Origin: a virus
Strand: one strand, 5' to 3'
IMG/VR virus record: IMGVR_UViG_3300021425_000114
Location: 1 to 30,882 of that record
Length of the DNA: 30,882 bases
Shown piece after piece: positions 2,663-26,957 of this stretch (the stretch's first letter is position 1; every line of letters starts with the position of its first letter). Under the pieces are notes generated by a model. It saw only the letters and a program-made list of their open reading frames with translations, did not search any database and had not been told where the DNA came from. A program made the translations under genes and the position numbers.

Positions 2663-3237
2663 AACGAGGATTTCCTGGTGATGAAGAATTCACGTTAAAT
2701 AACTACTGGCTTTTACCTTTTGAGTATGTATTAATTGCTATTATACAACTAAACAAGTTAAATCGAGAAGAACTACATAACATTGAGCGTCCGATATCGT
2801 ATCTAGCGTATCAGACAGCGGAGATGAATCGCGACAGGAAGAAGAATCGAAAACCATTCAAGCCAGAGGATTTCCAGTATTACAACGACCAATCAAAACA
2901 GAACCTTCCGGAGCCCAGGTATGGTGCTGCTGCATTAGCATTAATCAAGGCAGGAATGTTTCCAAATTGGGCATTATTCACGTATAAGGATTTAACTGCA
3001 AGAGCAAAAAATGTAACACCACCTACACTTTTATGTTTTCAATGTGAAGATGCAATTTTGCTAGCTCCAAGTGCAGAAGAAAATATAGTAAAGGGTATGT
3101 TAATTGCAGGGATCACAGCATCAGGGAATATCCGAATAATGAATTCACCATGTGGATCTAGTATAACGGTAAGGATACCTAAGATCAGCGGTCAATTTGA
3201 AGCTAATGAGGAAGCTGAACTAAGGATATTGTCTTAA
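2617..3237 (+). CDS. tail assembly chaperone extension (gpT-like, by -1 frameshift)
   Basis: This is the downstream half of a frameshifted gpGT-type chaperone; the fusion would be about 393 residues (187 from the gene starting at 2057 plus 206 from here). The segment before the internal ATG at 2824 reads as real protein (YYWRLKRGFPGDEEF, then NNYWLLPFEYVLIAI), followed by a basic stretch and RKPFKPEDFQYY, an arrangement typical of the T domain of these chaperones. The final part is a beta-rich domain of about 110 residues. An annotation starting at 2824 would give a 137-residue fragment and lose 69 codons. Its last 18 bases overlap the 3' end of the convergent HNH gene. Confidence 0.75.
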   Translation, partial: AEDEGIPFEEYYWRLKRGFPGDEEFTLNNYWLLPFEYVLIAIIQLNKLNREELHNIERPISYLAYQTAEMNRDRKKNRKPFKPEDFQYYNDQSKQNLPEPRYGAAALALIKAGMFPNWALFTYKDLTARAKNVTPPTLLCFQCEDAILLAPSAEENIVKGMLIAGITASGNIRIMNSPCGSSITVRIPKISGQFEANEEAELRILS

Positions 3238-3642
3238 TTTAAGCAACTGAAGATCAAGTTCAGATTGAGTAGGAAGGCGAGAGTTATCAAGCCAGAATAG
3301 AATTCGAGCTTCTCTAGTAGGATCATAAAAATCCTGTTGTCGAAACCAAGGGATCCAATCATGAGAACCTTTGCTTTGGTTATGTTCTAGACAAGCGGGA
3401 AGACAATTACGACTAATATCTTCTCCACCTTTACTGCGTGGTTTAAGATGATCAATAGTAAGTGATTGGTCACTAATAGGCGGTTGACCACAGAAGCAAC
3501 AGCAATTTTGCCAAGCATTTTTAATAGCTTTACGCCAAAGCCGTTTAGCCTCAGAACTTGTAAGGCATTCCATGACTGCTAGGTATTGGTGATAAGTATG
3601 AAGCACTTCCTGATGAGCAAAGGAAGTAAGGTCTTCAGACAT
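3220..3642 (-). CDS. HNH endonuclease, probable free-standing homing enzyme
   Basis: 140 residues on the strand opposite to all surrounding tail genes. The core has CCFCG (Cys48, Cys51), LTIDHLKPRSKGGED with the general-base His65, then RNCLPACLEHNQSKG with Asn79, Cys80, Cys84 and His87/Asn88, matching an HNH nuclease braced by structural cysteines. The C-terminus, FYDPTREARILFWL (residues 105-118), resembles the tail of small HNH proteins common in cyanophage genomes. Such enzymes nick or cut a recipient phage and spread themselves along with flanking DNA. It sits between the chaperone and the next tail gene and overlaps the chaperone extension convergently by 18 bases, so it has probably inserted here. 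Confidence 0.85.
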   Translation of the reverse strand: MSEDLTSFAHQEVLHTYHQYLAVMECLTSSEAKRLWRKAIKNAWQNCCCFCGQPPISDQSLTIDHLKPRSKGGEDISRNCLPACLEHNQSKGSHDWIPWFRQQDFYDPTREARILFWLDNSRLPTQSELDLQLLKLRQYP

Positions 3643-4318: not shown

Positions 4319-4903
4319 ATGGCAAACTTTTCTACCAGTTTTGGTTTTGACTGCTACCTCGTTCCTCTGAGTTCAGCGGAAGTAGATACCAGTTTTACTG
4401 GCGTTACCACTGCCGCTAATTTCATTGATACCACGACGGTTCAAGCCGCTGACGGTTCTATCACCTACGCAAGTGGCATCTTTAGTGTTGGCGCCACTGC
4501 ACTGGCTATGGATGGAACTGATGAACCATTCCGTCTTTATGGTCTAACCAACGCAGCCCTGGAAACCGACACGGATTCCGAGGATGTGGTGACCTATGAC
4601 GACGAAACCAAGGGTTTCAATATCAGTCTGCCAACCTCAAAGAGTTGGGAAGTATCTCTTGCAGGCGTTACTGATTTCAAGGATGCCGGTTATCATGTGT
4701 TGCGCTTGACCGAAGCAAACACGATTGCTGATGCATTGCGGGTGAAGTTCCTGCGTGTCGGTCCCACGGGTACTGACGAGAAGGTTTATGGCTATGGCAC
4801 TCTGAGTGGCTATACCGAATCGATCGAAGCTGGTTCGATTGTTTCTTGGGAAGCCACCTTGACAGGTTATGGTCCCTACCGTCTGGATCTCGATATCAAC
4901 TGA
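4319..4903 (+). CDS. major tail tube protein
   Basis: 194 residues. N-terminal MANFSTSFGFDCYLV, a beta-rich body with Ig-like character, and the C-terminal pattern ESIEAGSIVSWEATLTGYG (about residues 168-186) typical of TP901-1/lambda gpV-type tube proteins. It stacks as hexameric rings around the tape measure to form the tail tube. Codon choice is strikingly different from the AT-rich genes before it (GGT, ACC, CTG, CGT, AAC preferred), as expected for a very abundant virion protein. It is isolated between a hairpin upstream and a strong terminator downstream, suggesting its own transcript. No clear Shine-Dalgarno sequence is seen before the ATG. Confidence 0.8.
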   Translation: MANFSTSFGFDCYLVPLSSAEVDTSFTGVTTAANFIDTTTVQAADGSITYASGIFSVGATALAMDGTDEPFRLYGLTNAALETDTDSEDVVTYDDETKGFNISLPTSKSWEVSLAGVTDFKDAGYHVLRLTEANTIADALRVKFLRVGPTGTDEKVYGYGTLSGYTESIEAGSIVSWEATLTGYGPYRLDLDIN

Positions 4904-4926
4904 ATCGAGTAGCGACAATAATAAAG

Positions 4927-4952
4927 GAGCGGCTACGGCCGCTCTTTTTTTT
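4927..4952 (+). terminator. strong Rho-independent terminator after tail tube gene
   Basis: GAGCGGC (4927-4933), loop TACG, GCCGCTC (4938-4944), followed by eight T. The stem is a perfect 7 bp and can extend by A-U pairs into the T-tract. The C(TACG)G loop belongs to the very stable UNCG tetraloop class. It separates the tube gene from the tape measure gene. Confidence 0.9.
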
Positions 4953-5021
4953 GTGTATATGTGTAGCATAAAAAATAATAACAGACTGGAAAACTAGAAC
5001 ACCGAGTGCAAACAAGTAAGA

Positions 5022-8000
5022 GTGGCAGGAAAAGGAGACATTGATATTGGCATTAATGTTAGAGACGCAGGAGTTGCTGCTGCGGTTGATGCGATATTCA
5101 ATGGAGCCGAGGGTGCAGTTAATGATTTCAATAAACTTCTAGGTATAGAAGTACAAAAGAAGCTAGTTGTCGAGACATTTTTTGATCCATCAACAGCACA
5201 GAAAGGGATAAGAGTTGTTGAAAGAGATGTAAATAATCTTGGCTCTCAAATTGAGAAGCTTGCCGAGAAATCGAAGAAATTAGAATTTGGCAGTGCCACT
5301 AGCTTAAAGGGACAACTACGTGAAGCAACGCAAGCAAGGGATCAGATAAGAAGGTACGAAGAGAGTGTTGGAGTACTGGGGCAGAAAGTCCTAACAGTTA
5401 ATCAAGCCTGGGCAGCACAAAATGCAAGGGTTCAGGAATTATCTCGGCAACTAAGTATAGCAAGTGCCAATGGTTTTTGGGCAAAAGCGAAAGCAGGACT
5501 TAATCTACAAGGGCTTTCCAACTTTTCGAATGGCCTGGTTGCAGTTACGCAAGGTCTACAATCTGCCTCAATTTTAATTGGGCAGGTAATTGGATCATTC
5601 AACCAACTATTTACGGCGCTAGCAAAGATCCAGCAATTCGAATTATCATTCAAAGCAATTGGCGCTTCAGCAGGTGAGACCTCACTAGCTTTTCAGGAAT
5701 CAGAAAGGATTGCGCTAGGATTAGGGGTTGGCATCCAGACAGTTCGTGATGCATTTCAACAGTTATCACCAGTTATTTTGGCATCAGGTGGTTCAATTGG
5801 TGATGTATCAGCAATTACGGAGTCATTAAGTTCTCGTTTTGCTGCATTTGGGTTAAGTGCGGACAAAGCAAGGCGTGTAACGAATGGTGTCATTCAGGCA
5901 TTTGGTAAAGGCAAGCTACAAGCAGAGGAACTGACTCAACAGATTTCAGAAGCAGATCCAGCATTCAGAATAGACTTAGCGAGTGCAATAGGCGTAAGTG
6001 TTGCTGAACTGGGAGAATTAGTAAAGGCTGGTGAAATTACCAGTGATCGTCTAATCGAGATTTTACCTTTACTTTCAAAGAGCTCATTGCTATTTGGGAA
6101 GTTAGGAGATAGCGGAGCGTCTGCTGCAAATGCATTAGCAAAGGGTACGATAACAATAACACAGGCCAGGACTCAGTTAGATAACTTAAATCAGCTAAGT
6201 TTTGAACAACTTGCTCGTGCATTTGAACCTTTTCTGACAGCACTTATCAGAGTACAGGCTGCTTTTGTAGATTTTGGAACTGCGATTTCAAATGCAACTG
6301 CTCTAAAAGTTTTTGGCGAATTTTTGGGTCAGCTCACGAGTCAAGCAGGCGGAGTAATTGATGTAATCGGCAAGATTGCGCTAACATTCTTGTCAATCAT
6401 AGAAGCAGTCGGTAATGTAATCAATGCAATAGATAATTTTACTGAATCAATAGGTGGAATACGGGTAGTTGTAACAGGACTTGCTGCGTTAATAACAACC
6501 AAGCTAGTAGTTTCTCTACTCCGACTTGGTGTAACTTTAGGTACAACAATTGTAACTTCGATCGCAAAGTTTGCAGCGGGCATTGCGGCAGGAGGTGTTG
6601 GAATCAGTGGCCTGGCTGCGTCTATAGGTAAAGGCATTGCTACAATTTTCGGCTTAGATTCTGCAAGTTTGAAATTAATTGCAACAAACTTCAAGACGAT
6701 TGCATCAACTGGAGGAGTTACTGCGTCGCTGAAGGGTCTTGCCGCCGGAGCCACGACTGCAGCAGCTTCAATTTTAGGAGCCGGCAGTGCCAATGCAGCA
6801 CCATGGTTGGCGGACATAGCAAAACAAGCGACCAATGGGGCACAGGAAATAGGTAAACTGGCTCCTGCAACGCAATTAGTGATACCAGGTTTAACTGCTA
6901 CCGGTGAAGCTGCCAAGACAGGTGAAGCAGGACTTAAGGCACTAGGTTCAGCCACACAACTACCGATACCTGGTCTAAATGCAACGAATGAAGCTGTTAA
7001 AGCATATACAAAGGGTACATTGGAAGCGTTCTTACAATCGCAGCAAGGTGCTGCGGGTATTACTCAGGTAGCTAACGCTGCAAAGGACGGGGTACCTGCT
7101 TTTATTCCATACACGGCAGCAATACAAGGTGCCGGTGGTGCCGCAGCAGGTCTCGGACCTGCCGCTGTTGCGGGTGCTGCGGGGGTTGGTGCGGCAGGAA
7201 CTGCTGCAGGCGCTGCAACAGCTCCAACGCTGACGTTTGCGGGGGCTGTGTCGGCAGCGAATGCTTCGCTAACTGCAGGAATTAAGGCAGTACTTGCCTT
7301 TGGGGCCGCGTTGCTTACGAATCCAATAACTGCGACAATTATCGGAATAAGTGCATTAGCAGCAGGTGTCTTTTTCCTTAATAAAGCATTCAGCGGATCG
7401 GAGGCGAGCATCAAGTCTTTCGATGAAGGCATTAAAGGGATCAAGGAAAGATCAGAAAAAGCAATAGCAGCAATCGATGCTGCAGGGGATTCTGCAGTAG
7501 ACTTCGAGGAAAGGATAAAAAATCTGGAGGTAACTCCTGAAGGCCTTAGTGAGACAGCAGAAATATTCAATACCTTCCCTGCCCTAGTAAAAAGCGCAAC
7601 AGGCGAGTTCAAACAGATAGAAAAGGAAGCGACGGGCTTTTTTGAAAAAGCAGAAAAGGCTGTAGCTAAATACAATAAAGAACAGGATAAAACCGGTAAG
7701 GGTGCGCTTAAGGTTGCGCAAATCATAAGCGATTCAGAGAATGCAGTCCAACTAGCTCTGGAGACAACAAAGCGAAAGAGAGCTGAGCTTGAAGAGGCAG
7801 CGACCAAGACTGGAGGACCCATCAGTGAAGAAAATAAGAAGCTATTAATAGGTTATAATGAAAATATAAAAGCTCTTGAGCGCAAGAAACTAGCAATAGA
7901 AGATCTAAAGGCAACTGCAGTCGCTTCGGGAATTGAGATACCAGTAACAACAGTAGACCAAACCAAGGCAACACTAGATGGTATCAAGAGTAAAATAGAG

Positions 8001-11000
8001 ACGTTAAAGTCAAACATTGTACTTGAGCTAGATCCAAGAAAATTAGATGCCGCTTCATCCAAGCTAGAGTTTCTTAAATTTGAGCTTGAATTCCTGGAGA
8101 AAGACAGGTATCAGCTTCAGGTTGAATTGGAATATAAAATAAACGAATCTGCCTTACAAGCCCAACTTGATATTACTGATGCGCAAAAAACTAATATAGA
8201 GGCACAATTAGGTCTGCAACGAGCATTGCTATCAGTAGATGAGGCAAGACTGACAGCTCAAGAGAAAGCGCTAAGCGATCAAATTGAAGGACTAAAGAAA
8301 GCGGGTGCCTCGTCACAGGAGATCTATGATCTAGAGTTAAAATTAAAAGGTCTTGCCAATGAGAAGCTAGAGCTTAAGAGAAGGGCCGTTAAGGCTGAAC
8401 TGGATGCATTACCAAAAATCCAGGAAGCAGAAAAAAGATCGCTTGAACTTCAACAGAAACTAAAGCAAATAGAACTCGAAAAGACTCAAGCTGCACTGAA
8501 ACGACTGGAGAACGAAGCAAAAATAGCTCAACTTCAAAGTAGAGGTGATTTAGCGAAAGAGCAAGAGAAAGAAAGGCCGGACAATGCCAAGATCAGACTG
8601 CTCACTGATGAGGTAAACTTAAGGCAAGAAATCCTAGGCAGCATAGGGCAAGAAAAAAAAGTGCTCGAAAATGCGATCTCTGCCCAGGCTAGTCTAAACG
8701 AACTCGCCGATCAAAACCTGAGATTAAAGCAGGAAACTGATAGGGCTAACTTAAATGCAAAAGCCATTGAGGTCGGAGTTGGCGTAGATGCCAGGGGCGC
8801 TGCCCCTGCCTCTGTCAAGGTGCCAGTTGAATTCATACCTACGGGCGAGAACGACCTTGAGCGTCAGATCAGGGAACTCTCTGGTCGGCAGAGAATTGAC
8901 TTTGAGTTCACGCCTAATACGGATAAGGTCGAAGATGAGACAAGTCGTCTTGAGAATCAGGGCCTGGAGATAGACTCCAGTGTCACGCCTCCTGAGACAT
9001 CAGAGTTACAGAAGGAGCTAGATGAATTGCAAAAAGGTGGTTTAAGAATCGAGACATCACTTGGGGAGCCAAATACAAACGAAACCTATGCCACCATAGG
9101 AAATTTAGAGTCAGAGAAGATAGAGATCATTTCAGACATTGTACCACCCGATCCCGCTCCTATCACCTCAACAGTACAGGAACTGAACAATGAGAACGTA
9201 GAGATAGGAGCAGGATTTGAGGTTCCAGGCACAGAAGGCGTGCTTGAGAAGGTGGGGGAATTGGAAGATATTGATGTTAAAATTCAATCAGGTATCAATC
9301 CCCTTGATACGGATGCGGTATCCGACAAGATAGACGAACTGCAGGATGTCAAAGTTCAGATTCCTTCGGGCATTGAAAATCCGGATACTTCATTCATCGA
9401 TCAGGTCAGGGAAGAGAATGAGGGTACCCCCATCGAGATCCCAGTCAATGTGGGCACTGTTCAGGGGGCAGACGGGGTAACCAACCTGGACGGCGGGCTC
9501 TTGGAGATCACGCCAGTTATTGGCGAACTGGACACCACCGAAGTAGAAGGACAACTTGAGGAACTGAGCAACTTGGTGCCGGCCATCACTCCATTGGTGG
9601 AGGCCCCGGATACGAGTGAGACAAGAGGAGTCTTGCAGGATCTAGAAAGCACCTCTCCGATCATACCAGTAGCTCTGGGTCAATTGGATGAATCTTTGCT
9701 CAGGGGCAGTTTGGACGCCTTTGAGCAGACTGGACTAGAGATTAATCCATCTCTTAACTCTTTGGATGCATCGAAACTAGAACAAGAATTAGATGCACTA
9801 AAGGGGGATATTTTTGTACCAGCTTCAATCGAGCCCAGGGTAGAAAATGAATCTGAAGTTGAAGCGACTCTAAACCGTCTGGCTCGACCAATCGAAAGCA
9901 GTGCAAAGTATCGGATAGAGAATGAAGCCGAGCTTGCCAGTAATCTGGACGAAGCGTTTGGAGATAGGACCATCAATGTAGGAGCTGACATAACAGAAGC
10001 CGAGCAGGCGGTCATCAGACTGAAAGAACAGGATGGAGTAATCGGTCTAAACTTTGGCGTACCCGACGATCGCGAAGTCGAGCAACGAATCGGCGAACTG
10101 GAGCAAAGGAAAGTAGAAGTAGAAACCTACCTGGAGGACCTTAACACGGACGACGCTTATAACAAAATAAACAACCTAGAGGAAGAAATTGTAGATATAG
10201 CTTCAAGTATCAAGCCGCTCGATGCGACCTCAATAGAAGCCGAGATAGATAGGCTAAACAGGGAGCAAGTGCAGATTGAGTCGGGACTCGGTACCCCTGA
10301 CGATCGCAATGTGCAAGCCAAGGTACAGGAGATAAAGAATGGTGACGTTGAGATTCCATCCAGCATTCTCGATCCTGGTCTTTCCGGAATTGAAGAAACG
10401 AGAAGGGGTCTAGAAGGTGATCCGATTGTAATTCCGGTAAAAGTTGGCCCAGTCGAAGGTGGGGACAATCTTGCTGGCCCAGATGGCACAACTATACAGA
10501 TAGATACTGTACTTAATACTGCGGATGCGGACAAAAAGCTGGAGCAGCTAGGTAGTCCATCTCCCGAGGTCTCCGTAATTGTAACATCTCCCGACACGAG
10601 CGCAGCAGAAAGGAAGATAGATAGTTTAGGTAAAACTGAAATCGAGATAGAACCGATCCTGAAGCCGGTAGATGACTTCTCAGTTAAGGGTCAACTAGAA
10701 GAACTTCGTCAATCAGACGTAAAGATTGACACCAGGCTAGGGCGTCTTGATGATTCGGAGGCGATTGGACGGATAAATGCACTAAAAGAATCCAATATCG
10801 TTGTACCTGCCGAAATTGACCTGAAGTACGAGGCACTTGACTTAGGAAGGGAAGTGGATTCGATTCGTAATGGTTTAAGCGTCGATCTCAATGTCGAAAC
10901 CGTTGCAGTTGAAACCGAGTTGAACAGGTTAGAGCAACGGAAACTAGAAATTGAATTAGGTGTTATTGTTCCAGAAACAGGAGAACTGGACAGAATAAAT

Positions 11001-12968
11001 AGTCAACTAAACGCATTGGAAGCGCGAAGAAATGTAATTGACATCAAATATGACGTACAAGATCCAGGGGCGATACTAGATTTAACCCGTGAAAGCGTCA
11101 ATGTCCCTGTAAGGCTTGAGACTATAGAGATTGAGAATGAGTTAAGGAGATTAGCAGAGCGTAAGAGACAGATTCAGTTTGGTGTCGCTTCGGAGCCGGG
11201 TGAGCTTGAAGCAGTAGAGAATGAGCTACAGGAGCTCGAAGAAAGGAGAAGGATAATTCAGGTTGCTTATGGCTCTCCCGATCCAGAAGCGATAAATGAA
11301 CTAGATAGAGACCTGGAAGCAAGGAACCTGGAATTAAAGACATCGCTTCAGGCCCCTGACCCGACTCAAGTCAACGCCGAGCTGAGTAGGCTTAGAAGCA
11401 CTCAGGTGCAGTTCAAGCCAACGGTTGCTCCCTTGCCCACTGGGGCCACTAAGGTGCAGGCTGCGGCTCTTGCCACCACTCCGGTGCAGCTCAAGTCAAG
11501 CATTGCTTCTCTGCCGACCGAGCCTACCAAAGCCGAGGCCGCAGCTCTTGCTTCCACTCCAATACGGTTCAATCCAGCAATTGCACCAGTACCAGTTGAA
11601 GAAGCCAGGGCTGAGTTGTCAGAACTCGGTAACACACAAGTAGTGATAACCCCTGTCGTTAACCCTCCCGACACAACTATCGCGAAGACTGAGCTGGCCT
11701 CGCTGAGCGCTCCGGTAAACGTTCCTCTAACCGTTAATGCTGATACCGTTCAGGCGAAGACCGCCCTGACAGAGGTACGAACCGAGGGCGATGCGATTCA
11801 ATCCTCCATTGCCAATGCAACCGCAGCGACTACGTCCCTTGGTGGCAGGGCTCAGGAGGCAGTCTCGCCCTTTGGCGCACTGGGTGCAGCATCCGCGAAT
11901 CTATTGCAGTCCAGTAACACGATTGACCAGAATTTCGAGGGCATAGGTTCCGCTGCAACGGCGGCAGTAACACCAATGAGTTCGCTGAACACTTCTTTGG
12001 TCGGCGCTTCTACAAACTCCTTGGCAGCAGCTACCTCTGTAGGTAATCTGTCAACCAATGCGTCCGGCGCCGTAGGGGTCTTTGATGAATTACTGACTCA
12101 AACAACCGGAATCTCTGATAGCGCAGCCAGGGCCGCCGAGTCAACTGATCTAATAAAGACTGGCTTCGACGATGTCAACACAGCAGCGACGACCGCAGCA
12201 AAAGCTGCCTCTGCTATCTCCGAGAATTTAAGCAGCGTAAGGGAAAGCTTCTCTGATGCCGCGACAAGCAGCGAGACTCTGGCAACAGCGTTCAGCGAAT
12301 CAGTTCCAAGCTCAGCTACTCTCAGGACCAATACTGCAAATGTCGCAACAGAAGCGAGCAGGGTCGTAACACAAACTGATGCTATGTATGTTGATATAAG
12401 AGATAGTGTCGGTGTTACAAACACCCTAATAGGGAGACTCAACGCTGCTGCCAGGGCAGCGGCTAGTATAAGAATCCCAAGCGGAGGTAATAACTACTTT
12501 GCTGGTGGCCCAGTACAAGGTGGTGCTGCGTATACGGTGAACGAATTCGGCAAGGAGATGTTCCTTAGCAATAGCGGCAGGCTGTCTCAGATCAATGCAC
12601 CTGCTTGGGGTACCTGGAGAGCGCCAAGTTCTGGTACGATTATTCCAGCTCATATTGCGTCCGGTATTGATATTCCTAAGGGTGGAGTAAAAGTTTCCAA
12701 GCCTAGTGGTAGCCTTTCATCGTCGTCGGTCAAGAAAAACGGCAGCGGTCTTGGGAGGGTTATTACCAATCTGGTTAATGCCTTGAATGCATCCAGGGCA
12801 TCCCAAAAGAATAATGACAATGCAATACAGGCTACACAAGCGATCCAGATAGGAAAGCTAACCCAGGCGGTTAATAAATTAGTGGATAAAGATTGGAATG
12901 TAGGAGTAAATATCCAAGGCCAAAATGGCGGCTTAAGTTATGCTCGTGCAATTAATAGGAAGATATGA
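5022..12968 (+). CDS. tape measure protein (2648 aa)
   Basis: Starts at GTG 5022 (MAGKGDIDIGINVRDAG). Residues about 190-413 match the N-terminal tape-measure domain (KIQQFELSFKAIGASAGETS onward). Hydrophobic segments follow at about 445-468, 480-513 and 742-790. Charged coiled-coil sequence runs from about 880 to 1250, and about 35 degenerate 26-residue repeats from about 1265 to 2228. The end is Ala/Ser/Thr-rich, with GGPVQGGAAYTVNEFGKEMF near 2495, a motif often seen near the C-terminus of these proteins. The protein sets tail length and is ejected during infection; at about 0.15 nm per residue the tail would be near 400 nm. The gene overlaps the next one as ATGA. Large antisense frames inside it are composition artefacts. 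Confidence 0.95.
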   Translation: MAGKGDIDIGINVRDAGVAAAVDAIFNGAEGAVNDFNKLLGIEVQKKLVVETFFDPSTAQKGIRVVERDVNNLGSQIEKLAEKSKKLEFGSATSLKGQLREATQARDQIRRYEESVGVLGQKVLTVNQAWAAQNARVQELSRQLSIASANGFWAKAKAGLNLQGLSNFSNGLVAVTQGLQSASILIGQVIGSFNQLFTALAKIQQFELSFKAIGASAGETSLAFQESERIALGLGVGIQTVRDAFQQLSPVILASGGSIGDVSAITESLSSRFAAFGLSADKARRVTNGVIQAFGKGKLQAEELTQQISEADPAFRIDLASAIGVSVAELGELVKAGEITSDRLIEILPLLSKSSLLFGKLGDSGASAANALAKGTITITQARTQLDNLNQLSFEQLARAFEPFLTALIRVQAAFVDFGTAISNATALKVFGEFLGQLTSQAGGVIDVIGKIALTFLSIIEAVGNVINAIDNFTESIGGIRVVVTGLAALITTKLVVSLLRLGVTLGTTIVTSIAKFAAGIAAGGVGISGLAASIGKGIATIFGLDSASLKLIATNFKTIASTGGVTASLKGLAAGATTAAASILGAGSANAAPWLADIAKQATNGAQEIGKLAPATQLVIPGLTATGEAAKTGEAGLKALGSATQLPIPGLNATNEAVKAYTKGTLEAFLQSQQGAAGITQVANAAKDGVPAFIPYTAAIQGAGGAAAGLGPAAVAGAAGVGAAGTAAGAATAPTLTFAGAVSAANASLTAGIKAVLAFGAALLTNPITATIIGISALAAGVFFLNKAFSGSEASIKSFDEGIKGIKERSEKAIAAIDAAGDSAVDFEERIKNLEVTPEGLSETAEIFNTFPALVKSATGEFKQIEKEATGFFEKAEKAVAKYNKEQDKTGKGALKVAQIISDSENAVQLALETTKRKRAELEEAATKTGGPISEENKKLLIGYNENIKALERKKLAIEDLKATAVASGIEIPVTTVDQTKATLDGIKSKIETLKSNIVLELDPRKLDAASSKLEFLKFELEFLEKDRYQLQVELEYKINESALQAQLDITDAQKTNIEAQLGLQRALLSVDEARLTAQEKALSDQIEGLKKAGASSQEIYDLELKLKGLANEKLELKRRAVKAELDALPKIQEAEKRSLELQQKLKQIELEKTQAALKRLENEAKIAQLQSRGDLAKEQEKERPDNAKIRLLTDEVNLRQEILGSIGQEKKVLENAISAQASLNELADQNLRLKQETDRANLNAKAIEVGVGVDARGAAPASVKVPVEFIPTGENDLERQIRELSGRQRIDFEFTPNTDKVEDETSRLENQGLEIDSSVTPPETSELQKELDELQKGGLRIETSLGEPNTNETYATIGNLESEKIEIISDIVPPDPAPITSTVQELNNENVEIGAGFEVPGTEGVLEKVGELEDIDVKIQSGINPLDTDAVSDKIDELQDVKVQIPSGIENPDTSFIDQVREENEGTPIEIPVNVGTVQGADGVTNLDGGLLEITPVIGELDTTEVEGQLEELSNLVPAITPLVEAPDTSETRGVLQDLESTSPIIPVALGQLDESLLRGSLDAFEQTGLEINPSLNSLDASKLEQELDALKGDIFVPASIEPRVENESEVEATLNRLARPIESSAKYRIENEAELASNLDEAFGDRTINVGADITEAEQAVIRLKEQDGVIGLNFGVPDDREVEQRIGELEQRKVEVETYLEDLNTDDAYNKINNLEEEIVDIASSIKPLDATSIEAEIDRLNREQVQIESGLGTPDDRNVQAKVQEIKNGDVEIPSSILDPGLSGIEETRRGLEGDPIVIPVKVGPVEGGDNLAGPDGTTIQIDTVLNTADADKKLEQLGSPSPEVSVIVTSPDTSAAERKIDSLGKTEIEIEPILKPVDDFSVKGQLEELRQSDVKIDTRLGRLDDSEAIGRINALKESNIVVPAEIDLKYEALDLGREVDSIRNGLSVDLNVETVAVETELNRLEQRKLEIELGVIVPETGELDRINSQLNALEARRNVIDIKYDVQDPGAILDLTRESVNVPVRLETIEIENELRRLAERKRQIQFGVASEPGELEAVENELQELEERRRIIQVAYGSPDPEAINELDRDLEARNLELKTSLQAPDPTQVNAELSRLRSTQVQFKPTVAPLPTGATKVQAAALATTPVQLKSSIASLPTEPTKAEAAALASTPIRFNPAIAPVPVEEARAELSELGNTQVVITPVVNPPDTTIAKTELASLSAPVNVPLTVNADTVQAKTALTEVRTEGDAIQSSIANATAATTSLGGRAQEAVSPFGALGAASANLLQSSNTIDQNFEGIGSAATAAVTPMSSLNTSLVGASTNSLAAATSVGNLSTNASGAVGVFDELLTQTTGISDSAARAAESTDLIKTGFDDVNTAATTAAKAASAISENLSSVRESFSDAATSSETLATAFSESVPSSATLRTNTANVATEASRVVTQTDAMYVDIRDSVGVTNTLIGRLNAAARAAASIRIPSGGNNYFAGGPVQGGAAYTVNEFGKEMFLSNSGRLSQINAPAWGTWRAPSSGTIIPAHIASGIDIPKGGVKVSKPSGSLSSSSVKKNGSGLGRVITNLVNALNASRASQKNNDNAIQATQAIQIGKLTQAVNKLVDKDWNVGVNIQGQNGGLSYARAINRKI
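8815..11705 (+). repeat. about 35 tandem degenerate 26-codon repeats in tape measure gene
   Basis: Each unit encodes a short strand (V/L/I-x-I), a turn often reading P-D-T or P-D-D, a helix and a closing leucine. Examples are VKIQSGINPLDTDAVSDKI, VQIESGLGTPDDRNVQAKV and VKIDTRLGRLDDSEAIGRI. Most units are 26 residues, with some of 23-25 and a few interrupted by longer glycine-rich insertions near 9460 and 10460. Units are mostly unrelated at the DNA level except near 11405-11640, where neighbouring copies still match in 78-base register. Confidence 0.8.
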
Positions 12969-19614: not shown

Positions 19615-20049
19615 GTGGCTGTTACCGTTTCGCTGTACAACCATACCGCACGCCGCTTTGCGGACGGTAGTTTTACTCCATCTAATGGGTACAATGTGAA
19701 TCTGTATACCGCAGCCACGTTTGACGCCACACATACCGACATAGACCAGGTAGTTGGAACCGAGGTCGCGAATGCCAACGGCTACACGACTGGCGGCGCA
19801 ACGCTTCAGAACGTTACCGTAGAGACGGTCACCACGAATGACGCAAGATTCACGGCAGACGAGGTGACGTGGACCGCTACGGGTGGAGCGATTACTGCAT
19901 CCTTTGGAATTCTTTACGATTCCACAGATCCACTAGACCTGGCCCCAATAGCGTTTATCGATTTTGACGGAAGTCAATCTGCTGGAGCCGGCACCGACTT
20001 CAAGATTATTTGGAATGTCAACGGCATCTTCACCTTCACCGTAACCTAG
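19615..20049 (+). CDS. small virion protein, first of three paralogs
   Basis: 144 residues, probably from GTG 19615 (MAVTVSLYNHTARRF); the nearby ATG at 19605 is out of frame. The fold looks like a beta-sandwich, with markers NGYTTGGATL (residues about 55-64), TWTATGGAI (about 84-92) and FGILYDSTDPLDLAP, ending in DFKIIWNVNGIF. The same skeleton occurs in the next two genes. Such 110-140-residue proteins are common in phage tail and fiber modules; I cannot name a function. It is the first rightward gene after the divergent spacer. Confidence 0.7.
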   Translation: MAVTVSLYNHTARRFADGSFTPSNGYNVNLYTAATFDATHTDIDQVVGTEVANANGYTTGGATLQNVTVETVTTNDARFTADEVTWTATGGAITASFGILYDSTDPLDLAPIAFIDFDGSQSAGAGTDFKIIWNVNGIFTFTVT

Positions 20050-20150: not shown

Positions 20151-20588
20151 ATGGCCGCTTTTAACAAGGTAAATATTTTTGTACAAGACCTTGCAAGAGG
20201 GGTTCACATCTTAACGCCGACAACTGGTCACGTCTTGAAGTTATTCCTGTCGAATGATGCCCCTCTGCCTACCTCAGAATTAAAATCCACACTGAGCGAG
20301 ATCGCCGCAGGAAACGGCTATACTTCTGGGGGCAACCAGGTAGCCATTCAAAGCAGCATCCAGACGACTGGTACATACAAGCTGGTGCTATCTGATCCGG
20401 CGACATTTACGGCAGTAGGGGGATCTATTGGCCCATTTAGATACGTTGTTCTATACAACAGTACCACGGCATTCAAGGTCAATCCGTTGATCGGGTGGTG
20501 GGACTATGGATCTTCGATTACGTTGCTTGATGGAGAGTCCTTTGCAGTTGACTTCGACCAGACCGCAGGTGTCTTGGTAATTACCTAG
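20151..20588 (+). CDS. small virion protein, second of three paralogs
   Basis: 145 residues. It shares with the previous gene the order 'NGYTSGG' (about residues 55-61), 'FTAVGGSIGPFRYVVLYN' (about 87-104) and a closing strand pair (GESFAVDFDQTAGVLVI). Pro/Trp content in NPLIGWWDYG distinguishes it. It is separated from the first paralog by about 100 bases in which I see no promoter or terminator, and from the third by two bases. It probably encodes a tail or capsid accessory protein, of unknown exact role. Confidence 0.75.
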   Translation: MAAFNKVNIFVQDLARGVHILTPTTGHVLKLFLSNDAPLPTSELKSTLSEIAAGNGYTSGGNQVAIQSSIQTTGTYKLVLSDPATFTAVGGSIGPFRYVVLYNSTTAFKVNPLIGWWDYGSSITLLDGESFAVDFDQTAGVLVIT

Positions 20589-24209: not shown

Positions 24210-25112
24210 ATGTCACTCACTCTGGCTGAGGCCAAGAAGCATAGTCGTAATCCCCAAGAACTGGCGATTATTACTGAACTTTCTGCCGGCCCCCTGACCA
24301 GCAACCTGCCTTTCCGCGAAGTGCAAGGTTCTGGTATTTTCTATAAGAGGGAAACCGAACTTGGAGACGTGGGGTTCCGCGCCTTCAATGAAGGTTATAC
24401 CGAGAGCTATGCTGAGGTTCGTCAATACAGCGAAGCGCTGAAGCTTTTCGGTGGCGACGTGAAAGTTGACCGTGCACTTGTTGAACTCGAAGGTCCTCAA
24501 GCTCGCGCTTATCAGATTCAAGCTAAGACTCGCGCAATGCGTCTGTCTTTCGAAGCGCTGTTCATCAACGGTGACAGCAACAGCAATGCTGCTGAATTCG
24601 ATGGCCTGAGCCTGCGTCTGCCTGCTTCTGAAGCCGGTAACCAGTCTCAAGTTATCGAGAACTCTAGCACTCCTGGAGCGTTGGATCTGAACAAGCTTGA
24701 CGAAGCGATTGATGCTGTTGACGCCCAGGGCGGCCAGAAGTATCTGATCACCTCGAAGTCTGCTCGTCGTCACTTGAGCGCCATTGCTCGCGCCAACGGT
24801 CAAATTGATATTGAGCGTTCGGAGTTCGGTGGCCAGCAACTGATCTACGGTGGTATTCCTGTACTGGAACTCGACCGCGACCACAAGAACGTTGCAATTC
24901 TCGACAGCGACCCCACAGATCAATCGATCTACGTGGTGTCCTTCGGCAACGATCACCTAACCGGCATCCAAAACGGCGGTCCTCAGGTTCGTGACCTGGG
25001 AGAAGCTACCGAGTCTCCGGTTCTGGTCACCCGCGTCGAGTGGTACTGTGGTCTGGCACTGATGAACGGTCGTGCCGCCTCTCGTTTGACCAACATTGAC
25101 GCCACTGCTTAA
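24210..25112 (+). CDS. major capsid protein (HK97 fold)
   Basis: 300 residues. Markers of the HK97-fold capsid family are a spine-like region (AKTRAMRLSFEALFINGD, residues 105-122), EFDGLSLRLP (129-138), and the A-domain-like segments GGQKYLITSKSARRHLSA and IYGGIPVLELDRD. There is no long N-terminal delta domain, consistent with the separate scaffold encoded just upstream. It has a good ribosome binding site (AAAGG, eight bases before ATG) and codon use strongly biased to C/G endings (CGT, CTG, GAA, AAC, GGT), as expected for the most abundant virion protein. A strong terminator follows. Unusually, the head genes lie downstream of the tail genes. Confidence 0.88.
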   Translation: MSLTLAEAKKHSRNPQELAIITELSAGPLTSNLPFREVQGSGIFYKRETELGDVGFRAFNEGYTESYAEVRQYSEALKLFGGDVKVDRALVELEGPQARAYQIQAKTRAMRLSFEALFINGDSNSNAAEFDGLSLRLPASEAGNQSQVIENSSTPGALDLNKLDEAIDAVDAQGGQKYLITSKSARRHLSAIARANGQIDIERSEFGGQQLIYGGIPVLELDRDHKNVAILDSDPTDQSIYVVSFGNDHLTGIQNGGPQVRDLGEATESPVLVTRVEWYCGLALMNGRAASRLTNIDATA

Positions 25113-25201: not shown

Positions 25202-25528
25202 TTGAAGCCAGCGAAGCTCGATCTAACAGTACACCAACGTGCCACTCTCCGGGTACGCTTCAGGTTTCCGTTTGATTGCACTGGATACGAGGTGAAATCT
25301 CAGATCTGGTCGGCTTATCGCGTTAAAAAACTTGTTGATTTTGAGACCGAATGGATAGATCGAGCCGACGGAAGAGTTGACATAGTTGCTGATTTCAATG
25401 AAACACAATTTAATGCAAAGGGTGCCGAATGGGACCTGTTATTGATCTATCCTAACCTGGAGAGACTATTCTGGGTAGAGGGTAAAATAATTGTAGATCC
25501 TGGATTCACGGAGTCAAACAATGTCTGA
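25202..25528 (+). CDS. fiber-base protein (BppU N-terminal-like)
   Basis: 108 residues from TTG 25202; no ATG or GTG exists upstream in this open frame, so the unusual start is preferred. The order of strands and the phrases [20 protein letters not shown] and [20 protein letters not shown] resemble the small beta-sandwich found at the N-terminus of baseplate upper / fiber proteins ('...DLTGY.v..qi...'). It overlaps the collagen-like fiber gene by eight bases (ATGTCTGA). In other phages this domain is often fused to or precedes a collagen-like fiber, so it probably anchors the next protein to the tail tip or head. Confidence 0.65.
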
Positions 25529-26957
25529 AATTACTCTTCAGGTTGTAGACGAAGGCCAGGTTGAAATTGTCCAACTAATCCAGCCTGGACCTCCGGGTCC
25601 AGTCGGTGCAACGGGCCCCTCTGGTCCGACTGGCCCAACAGGCGTAATTGGTTCTACGGGTGTCACCGGTACGACAGGATCAACAGGAGCCACTGGACCA
25701 GAGGGTGCGACAGGACCGGCCGGAGGTCCAAGTGGAGCCACTGGAGCAACAGGCGTTACTGGAGCTACAGGTGCTGTCGGCAGCGATGGAGCTACTGGGG
25801 CCACAGGACCAGCCGGCACGTCAATAACCATTCTCGGTTCCATTGATATTGGCATTGCCGATCCACAGCAAACTCTTAATGATGCGTTCCCTACTGCCGT
25901 TGCCGGCAATGGTGCGATTGATAGCGGCACGGGACACCTATGGGTGTATGACGGCTCGCAGTGGGATGACGTTGGCACCATTGTTGGACCGTCTGGCCCT
26001 ACTGGCGTAACTGGTGTAACTGGTGTAACTGGCGTAACTGGCGCAACTGGTGCTACTGGCCCTCAAGGTGAAAGCGGCGTTGTTGGTCAAACTGGAGCAA
26101 CTGGTGTAGCCGGCGCTGATGGAGCAACCGGCGTCACGGGTGTCATTGGTGAGACTGGCCCAACTGGCGTCACCGGAGCCACTGGTCCCGAAGGTGCTAC
26201 CGGAGCTGGCGCAACAGGAGCTACAGGCATTCAAGGACCTACAGGACCCGCTGGTGCTGGCACGCCTGGTAACAATGATGTAGGTGTCATCTATCTCAAA
26301 GATAATACCACTCCAACAACTATTGCAAACGCCAATGATCGGGCTGTTGTTGCAGGCACAATGCTCACAGGTGAGCTATTTAATTTTACCAAGGATAGCA
26401 CTACTAATTCGCTTAAGTACTCAGGCATTGGCGGTTTATTTCACATTGTTGCCACATTTAACTTTGAAGCAGGTAGTCAAAATATATGCGGATTTTATAT
26501 TGGTCACAGCACTGATGATACCGTTGCCCTCGATCCCAACGCTGATCGAATTTCCGAGTCCGAGATATATATAAACTCAAGCAACGGCGCTAATCAACCA
26601 GTTGGTGGCGCCATTCAGACAGTGTTGAATCTGGCAACTGATGATCGGGTGTTCTTTATTGTTCAGAACCAAACGGCTGGAACCAATATCACCGTTGAGT
26701 TTCTTAAGTTTACGGTTACAGCACTTACCGCTGAAAAAGGTGACACAGGCTCGACGGGACCCACTGGTGTCACTGGTGTTACTGGCGTTACTGGCGCGAC
26801 CGGAGCCGCAGGTGCCTCGTATCTTGCAAGTCTACTAGATGTTGATGTGACGGCAAAAGCTAGCAATAGCGTCCTGTATTATAATGAAACTTCAGAAAAA
26901 TTTGTAGCCGACGATGTCAACACAGTGGTTACGCTTACGGATGGTGGTAATTTCTGA
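25521..26957 (+). CDS. collagen-like fiber protein
   Basis: 478 residues. An N-terminal acidic segment (1-22) is followed by Gly-X-Y repeats at about 23-99, a compact spacer of about 55 residues ([16 protein letters not shown]) typical between phage collagen blocks, a second Gly-X-Y block at about 156-250, a beta domain at about 251-400 that looks like a C1q/TNF-type jelly roll ([14 protein letters not shown]...), a third short Gly-X-Y block at about 406-433 and a small C-terminal domain. Many triplets are G-A-T, G-V-T or G-P-T. It should form a trimeric fiber, with the jelly-roll domain as a possible receptor binder. The start overlaps the preceding gene. Confidence 0.9.
26003..26058 (+). 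repeat. 9-bp tandem repeat in collagen-like gene
   Basis: Near-perfect tandem copies of a nine-base unit (GGNGTAACT) encode G-V-T triplets, with a shorter similar array at about 26764-26800. Such tracts can gain or lose whole triplets by slippage without changing frame. Confidence 0.7.

Follow-up and report, generated by a model that had tools for sequence, protein, structure and literature searches.

An S-CBS2-like cyanosiphovirus tape measure protein with an array of about 39 strand-turn-helix-type units

The tape measure gene and its surroundings

The window, a 30,882-base IMG/VR virus record that is apparently a fragment, carries a gene for a tape measure protein (TMP) directly downstream of the gene for the major tail (tube) protein (Table 1). 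The encoded protein matches TMP_3 (PF20155) of Pfam (2.1e-23, 83.5 bits against a cut-off of 41), tape measure families of PHROG (values down to 1.2e-13) and the NCBIfam model tape_meas_nterm (TIGR02675; 5e-13, 49.1 bits against a cut-off of 21.35), and it has the large size and the adjoining tail tube gene expected of the TMP_3 family. An earlier, sequence-only reading of the window had named it a tape measure, and the profile matches and the tail tube neighbor uphold this identity. The virus is an S-CBS2-like cyanosiphovirus. The N- and C-terminal regions of the protein, and the order of tail tube gene followed by tape measure gene, are shared with the TMP_3 tape measures of S-CBS2/S-CRES/P-SS2-like cyanosiphoviruses, whose capsid proteins are 50–66% identical to that of the window, and the C-terminal motif FAGGPVQGGAAYTVNEFGKEMF is common to cyanophages S-CBS2, S-CRES1-3 and P-SS2; these tape measures are, however, shorter (932–1885 aa against 2648 aa), and none has the 26-residue array described below. 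Given the identity of the tail tube and capsid proteins with those of cyanophage S-CBS2 (Table 1), the host is probably a picocyanobacterium.

An HNH endonuclease gene (3220-3642, - strand) lies amid the tail genes on the opposite strand, and a gene of this kind has the same position and orientation in S-CBS2, S-CRES1 and S-CRES3. The gap between the tail tube and tape measure genes (4904-5021) is too small for a separate tape-measure chaperone gene, and the spacing is equally close in S-CRES1 and S-CRES3. Just 3' of the capsid gene is a gene for a collagen-like protein (25521-26957, + strand) with short tandem repeats of 9-, 18- and 27-base periods, and two adjacent genes on the + strand (19615-20049 and 20151-20588), both of PHROG family 644 (unknown function), are probably a tandem duplication.

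Table 1. Positions in the window of the tape measure gene, its parts and the tail tube and capsid genes
Feature	Position	Strand	Basis or remark
Major tail (tube) protein	4319..4903	+	PHROG 38654, 9e-79; 72% identity with S-CBS2 gp019
Tape measure protein, 2648 aa, GTG start	5022..12968	+	Pfam TMP_3, PHROG and NCBIfam profile matches
TMP_3 domain, residues 195-388	5604..6185	+	Pfam; conserved N-terminal region is residues ~1-540
Coiled-coil-like region, residues ~800-1261	7419..8805	+	Alignable to L025, L035, L038 and L060, and to L063 from residue ~947
Repeat array, residues 1265-2259, ~39 putative strand-turn-helix units	8814..11798	+	Periodicity and unit profile
Super-repeat block 1, residues 1315-1597	8964..9812	+	Lag 331, z = 10.2
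Super-repeat block 2, residues 1646-1928	9957..10805	+	Lag 331, z = 10.2
Youngest unit duplication, residues 2129-2180 (pair 2129/2155)	11406..11561	+	71% nt and 62% aa identity
Conserved C-terminal region, residues 2390-2648, with motif FAGGPVQGGAAYTVNEFGKEMF	12189..12965	+	
Major capsid protein	24210-25112		66% identity with S-CBS2 capsid protein

The repeat array and the fold of its unit

The sequence-only reading had described a regular repeat, mostly of 26-residue units and in about 35 copies, between bases 8815 and 11705. Autocorrelation of residues 1265–2228 with BLOSUM62, compared with shuffles, gave z scores of 17.9, 11.6 and 8.4 at lags 26, 52 and 78, and the lag-26 peak was absent from residues 1–900, 900–1265 and 2228–2648. 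The regular repeat is borne out, a protein without periodicity near 26 is contradicted, and the boundaries agree, with residue 1265 beginning at base 8814 and residue 2228 ending at 11705. The number of copies is nearer 39. Division by strand starts, with lengths of 21–30 residues allowed, separated residues 1265–2259 into 39 units. Of these, 24 are exactly 26 aa long, five have 23 aa and four 25 aa; the weakest (u1650, u1802, u1825, u2005 and u2233) owe their placement more to position than to score. A self-trained 26-column profile placed 25 units in the array with a total score of 802, against at most 10 in 100 shuffles, a comparison that is partly circular as the array itself had served to train the profile; the autocorrelation is free of this circularity.

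In the consensus, columns 1, 3, 7, 15, 19 and 22 are hydrophobic (leucine at 22 in 22 of 25 units), columns 10–12 read P/L-D-T/D, and the remaining columns are polar and mostly acidic. The P-D-T motif noted previously stands as a consensus (P at column 10 in 12/25, D at 11 in 15/25, T at 12 in 12/25) and not as a regular feature, being complete in few units only. The array has a net charge of -11.5 per 100 aa, while the middles of related tape measures range from +2.8 to -8.4 (below -7 only in two 955-residue forms), and it contains 6.4% proline against 2.4% or less in those middles; tryptophan is absent and phenylalanine amounts to 1.3%. Tape measure proteins are ejected during infection, and the more acidic and proline-rich character of the array would suit a module that acts after ejection in a conduit across the cyanobacterial envelope, with length a secondary matter. 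Profile searches, however, detected no enzymatic or membrane domain in the array, and it sits within the length-variable middle of the protein; we consider such a function unlikely. Tandem repeats within the length-determining region are also known from TP901-1-type tape measures (PMC5099701), but those are spaced Trp/Phe repeats of 11 or 18 residues, whereas the array is Trp-free and proline-rich with a unit of 26 residues, and is not an aromatic repeat of this type.

The hydrophobic moment is maximal at 180 degrees in positions 1–8, as in a strand, and at 100 degrees in positions 12–24, as in a helix, and the unit has the elements of a strand-turn-helix module, namely a strand pattern at hydrophobic columns 1, 3 and 7, a D/T/S turn, and a helix with hydrophobic residues at i, i+4 and i+7. 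The heptad signal is weak (z = 4.3 at lag 7 against 17.9 at lag 26) and does not indicate a heptad coiled coil. Since 64 prolines are spread over 34 of the 39 units, the longest run without one being 57 residues, the array is not one continuous coiled coil, an outcome that would have contradicted the sequence-only reading. An AF2 model of six units placed a helix of 10–13 residues in each (residues 12–24 in the first), joined by extended links, and paired strands were absent from this low-confidence model (pLDDT 56, pTM 0.14); confidence was low for the N-terminal region too (25 rows, pLDDT 52). Of the strand-turn-helix unit as first described, the helix has two supports, the hydrophobic pattern and AF2, and the strand has one, the pattern.

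The regular 26-residue unit fits the size range of leucine-rich-type solenoids, and its helix and strand faces are both amphipathic, so that a compact alpha/beta solenoid has to be weighed; strands would stack within the chain at ~0.5–1 nm per unit, and the array would serve as a plug or ejected domain and not as ruler length. AF2, usually ready to build solenoids, nevertheless left the strands unpaired in its low-confidence model, the unit lengths vary from 21 to 30, and the tail lumen is about 4 nm wide, in which several TMP copies carrying wide solenoids would hardly fit. This fold appears improbable. Alpha/beta coiled coils with beta-layers (PMC4786415) also have short strands alternating with helices, and the idea of a parallel trimer could be shared, but their beta-layers take up 3 residues each within motifs of 6 or 9 residues, whereas the window unit spans 26 residues with a strand-type segment of 8–10 residues and a PDT-like turn, unlike a beta-layer.

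Related tape measures and traces of the unit elsewhere

Relatives were collected by IMG/VR searches with C-terminal, N-terminal and tail-tube queries, together with annotated cyanophages, giving 33 distinct complete tape measures besides that of the window (ORFs counted stop to stop). They range from 955 to 2,646 codons, with conserved ends and a hypervariable middle, and align to window residues 1–540 and 2390–2648, their middles being mostly unalignable. Five of them (L025, L035, L038, L060 and L063) also align to all or part of residues 800–1253, the coiled-coil stretch, after which alignment resumes at residues 2278–2482 and the array is skipped. Because the alignments of these five jump past the array, it is an insertion at the junction between the coiled-coil and the conserved C-terminal region, inside the middle whose length differs from relative to relative.

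The 26-residue array is absent from all 33 complete relatives. When the repeat profile was run against the ORFs of 180 loci the window was the sole match, a tblastn search of 50,697 phage records with the array as query found no close relative of it, and no array-bearing relative came from IMG/VR scans that used the complete protein, the array, the gene downstream or the stretch shared with L027; one scan of genome contigs returned only distant TMP fragments. The closest relative, L027, is 70% identical and stops at residue 1101, short of the array. Another, L062, reaches 2646 aa without the 26-residue array and with a different middle. The array is therefore not required for a long ruler, and L062 is consistent with a ruler that accepts different kinds of filler. 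Word searches of the literature, mostly outside subscription journals, found no description of a strand-turn-helix array this large in a tape measure.

The sequence-only reading did not recognize the unit from tape measures, and this part of it has to be revised. At the junction where the array lies in the window, L035 and L038 show some three strand-turn-helix units of looser pattern, e.g., QSLNIGLDANLDPQSVNQAVSEGQAAL and KPTVDTVGFYNEVRQAV. Across 53 TMPs the unit profile favored the N-terminal 60 residues (median rank 0.17, KS p 1e-10, an optimistic value as the sampled TMPs are related to one another); a profile with reversed helix-strand order gave no N-terminal enrichment in the same proteins (p 0.16), and one with permuted columns gave a weaker enrichment than the real profile. 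Of two hand-made actinophage consensus queries, one had no match and the other, less repetitive, matched annotated Streptomyces tape measures only. This lead was tested with the window's own profile, which placed four in-phase units in residues 45–153 of the JackieB TMP, within its N-terminal 165 residues (shuffles: mean 0.37, maximum 3). Like the window array, the TMPs of JackieB and LazerLemon (MH229863, MH229865) have successive strand-turn-helix units, here of ~24–33 residues and found by the window's unit profile, but in only ~4–5 copies, N-terminal and without repeat annotation, whereas the window array is internal and 39-fold. The strand-turn-helix module thus appears detectable at one to five copies in other tape measures, in the N-termini of relatives, at the L035/L038 junction and in JackieB. 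With HMMER alone no match reached significance, and the likeness may be convergent because it consists of a short hydrophobic/polar pattern.

No PDB profile match was significant, and the real array matched no Pfam repeat family. Matches of an idealized consensus repeat (CDI, Metal_resist and PHROGs of unknown function) were dismissed as artefacts of the synthetic repeat, those of the real array being weak, and a match of the real array to an SbcC-like PHROG (3e-7) probably reflects its Glu-rich composition.

Growth of the array and tail length

A super-repeat of 331 residues (z = 10.2) shows that the array was enlarged by the copying of blocks of ~12–13 units each. The two blocks are 22% identical in amino acid sequence overall and 34% across residues 1393–1493. 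Mean identity between units is 39% (nt) and 22% (aa), and an assembly artefact was ruled out as the source of the array since its units are so dissimilar at the nucleotide level. Between pairs of units the mismatch at codon position 3 is 0.69–0.72, close to the random value of 0.73–0.75, while at codon position 2 it is 0.196 in the six hydrophobic columns and 0.57 elsewhere. The array is old, with third codon positions near saturation, and the hydrophobic pattern has been maintained over a long time. Retention of these columns while silent sites became saturated argues against a neutral filler, that is, a disordered repeat grown by slippage with no structural role; the low AF2 confidence would suit such a filler, as would the unrelated array of a sibling TMP, L167 (see below), yet we regard it as very unlikely.

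With a probability of roughly 0.6, we read the array as a TMP module that existed beforehand and has been expanded to an extreme degree, in the length-setting region of this S-CBS2-like cyanosiphovirus tape measure. A module widespread among phage tape measures, in one to a few copies each, would have been multiplied, both as single units and as blocks of ~12–13, enlarging the length-setting middle where the coiled-coil stretch meets the conserved C-terminal domain. Several parallel TMP copies would hold the array inside the tail lumen, where it would add length, each unit contributing a short helix and an extended segment, with strands pairing between TMP chains and no fold-back within a chain. 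A more specific form of ruler, in which non-coiled-coil alpha/beta units build an inter-chain sheet-and-helix rod whose length is quantized by unit number and which grows by block duplication, is conceivable but doubtful. As a form of a known part the array is striking, with the strand-turn-helix module at ~39 copies against the usual one to five.

By analogy, the array may be ruler material, and it is plausible that tail length changes by steps of one repeat, as the sequence-only reading supposed; the uneven unit lengths (21–30) imply that register need not be strict. The usual rule of 0.15 nm per residue presupposes a helix. In TP901-1, deletions in the middle segment, of repeat or non-repeat sequence, shorten the tail in proportion, and alanines in place of one repeat are tolerated (PMC5099701), while a 1,886-residue tape measure accompanies a 325 nm tail in P-SS2 (PMC2784084) and a 1,964-residue one a 300 nm tail in phiCbK (PMC3556154). 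By arithmetic and not from data, the 1,653 residues outside the array would account for about 250–285 nm of tail, and the predicted total is ~265–325 nm for a solenoid, ~400 nm if all is helix and ~450–510 nm if extended. Because these three packings predict clearly different tails, length setting by non-helical TMP middles is testable with the 39-unit array.

Repeats of other kinds occur in related tape measures. That of L167 (L167:3794-9610, 1938 aa) has 14 copies of a 27-residue, 81-base tandem repeat (NINTSPTVIPEHLTSQLGVPTTEINTK; array 8421-9455), which is unrelated to the window array, young (85% matching at the DNA level) and evidently derived from the conserved C-terminal motif APSSGTVIPAHLTSELDIPATG. 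Together, the window and L167 arrays suggest that tandem duplication of local segments lengthens TMP middles and C-termini, and has done so independently more than once in one phage group. In the tape measure of L008 (L008:2024-9343, 2439 aa), the middle is a different, coiled-coil-like repeat with periods of 25 and 39.
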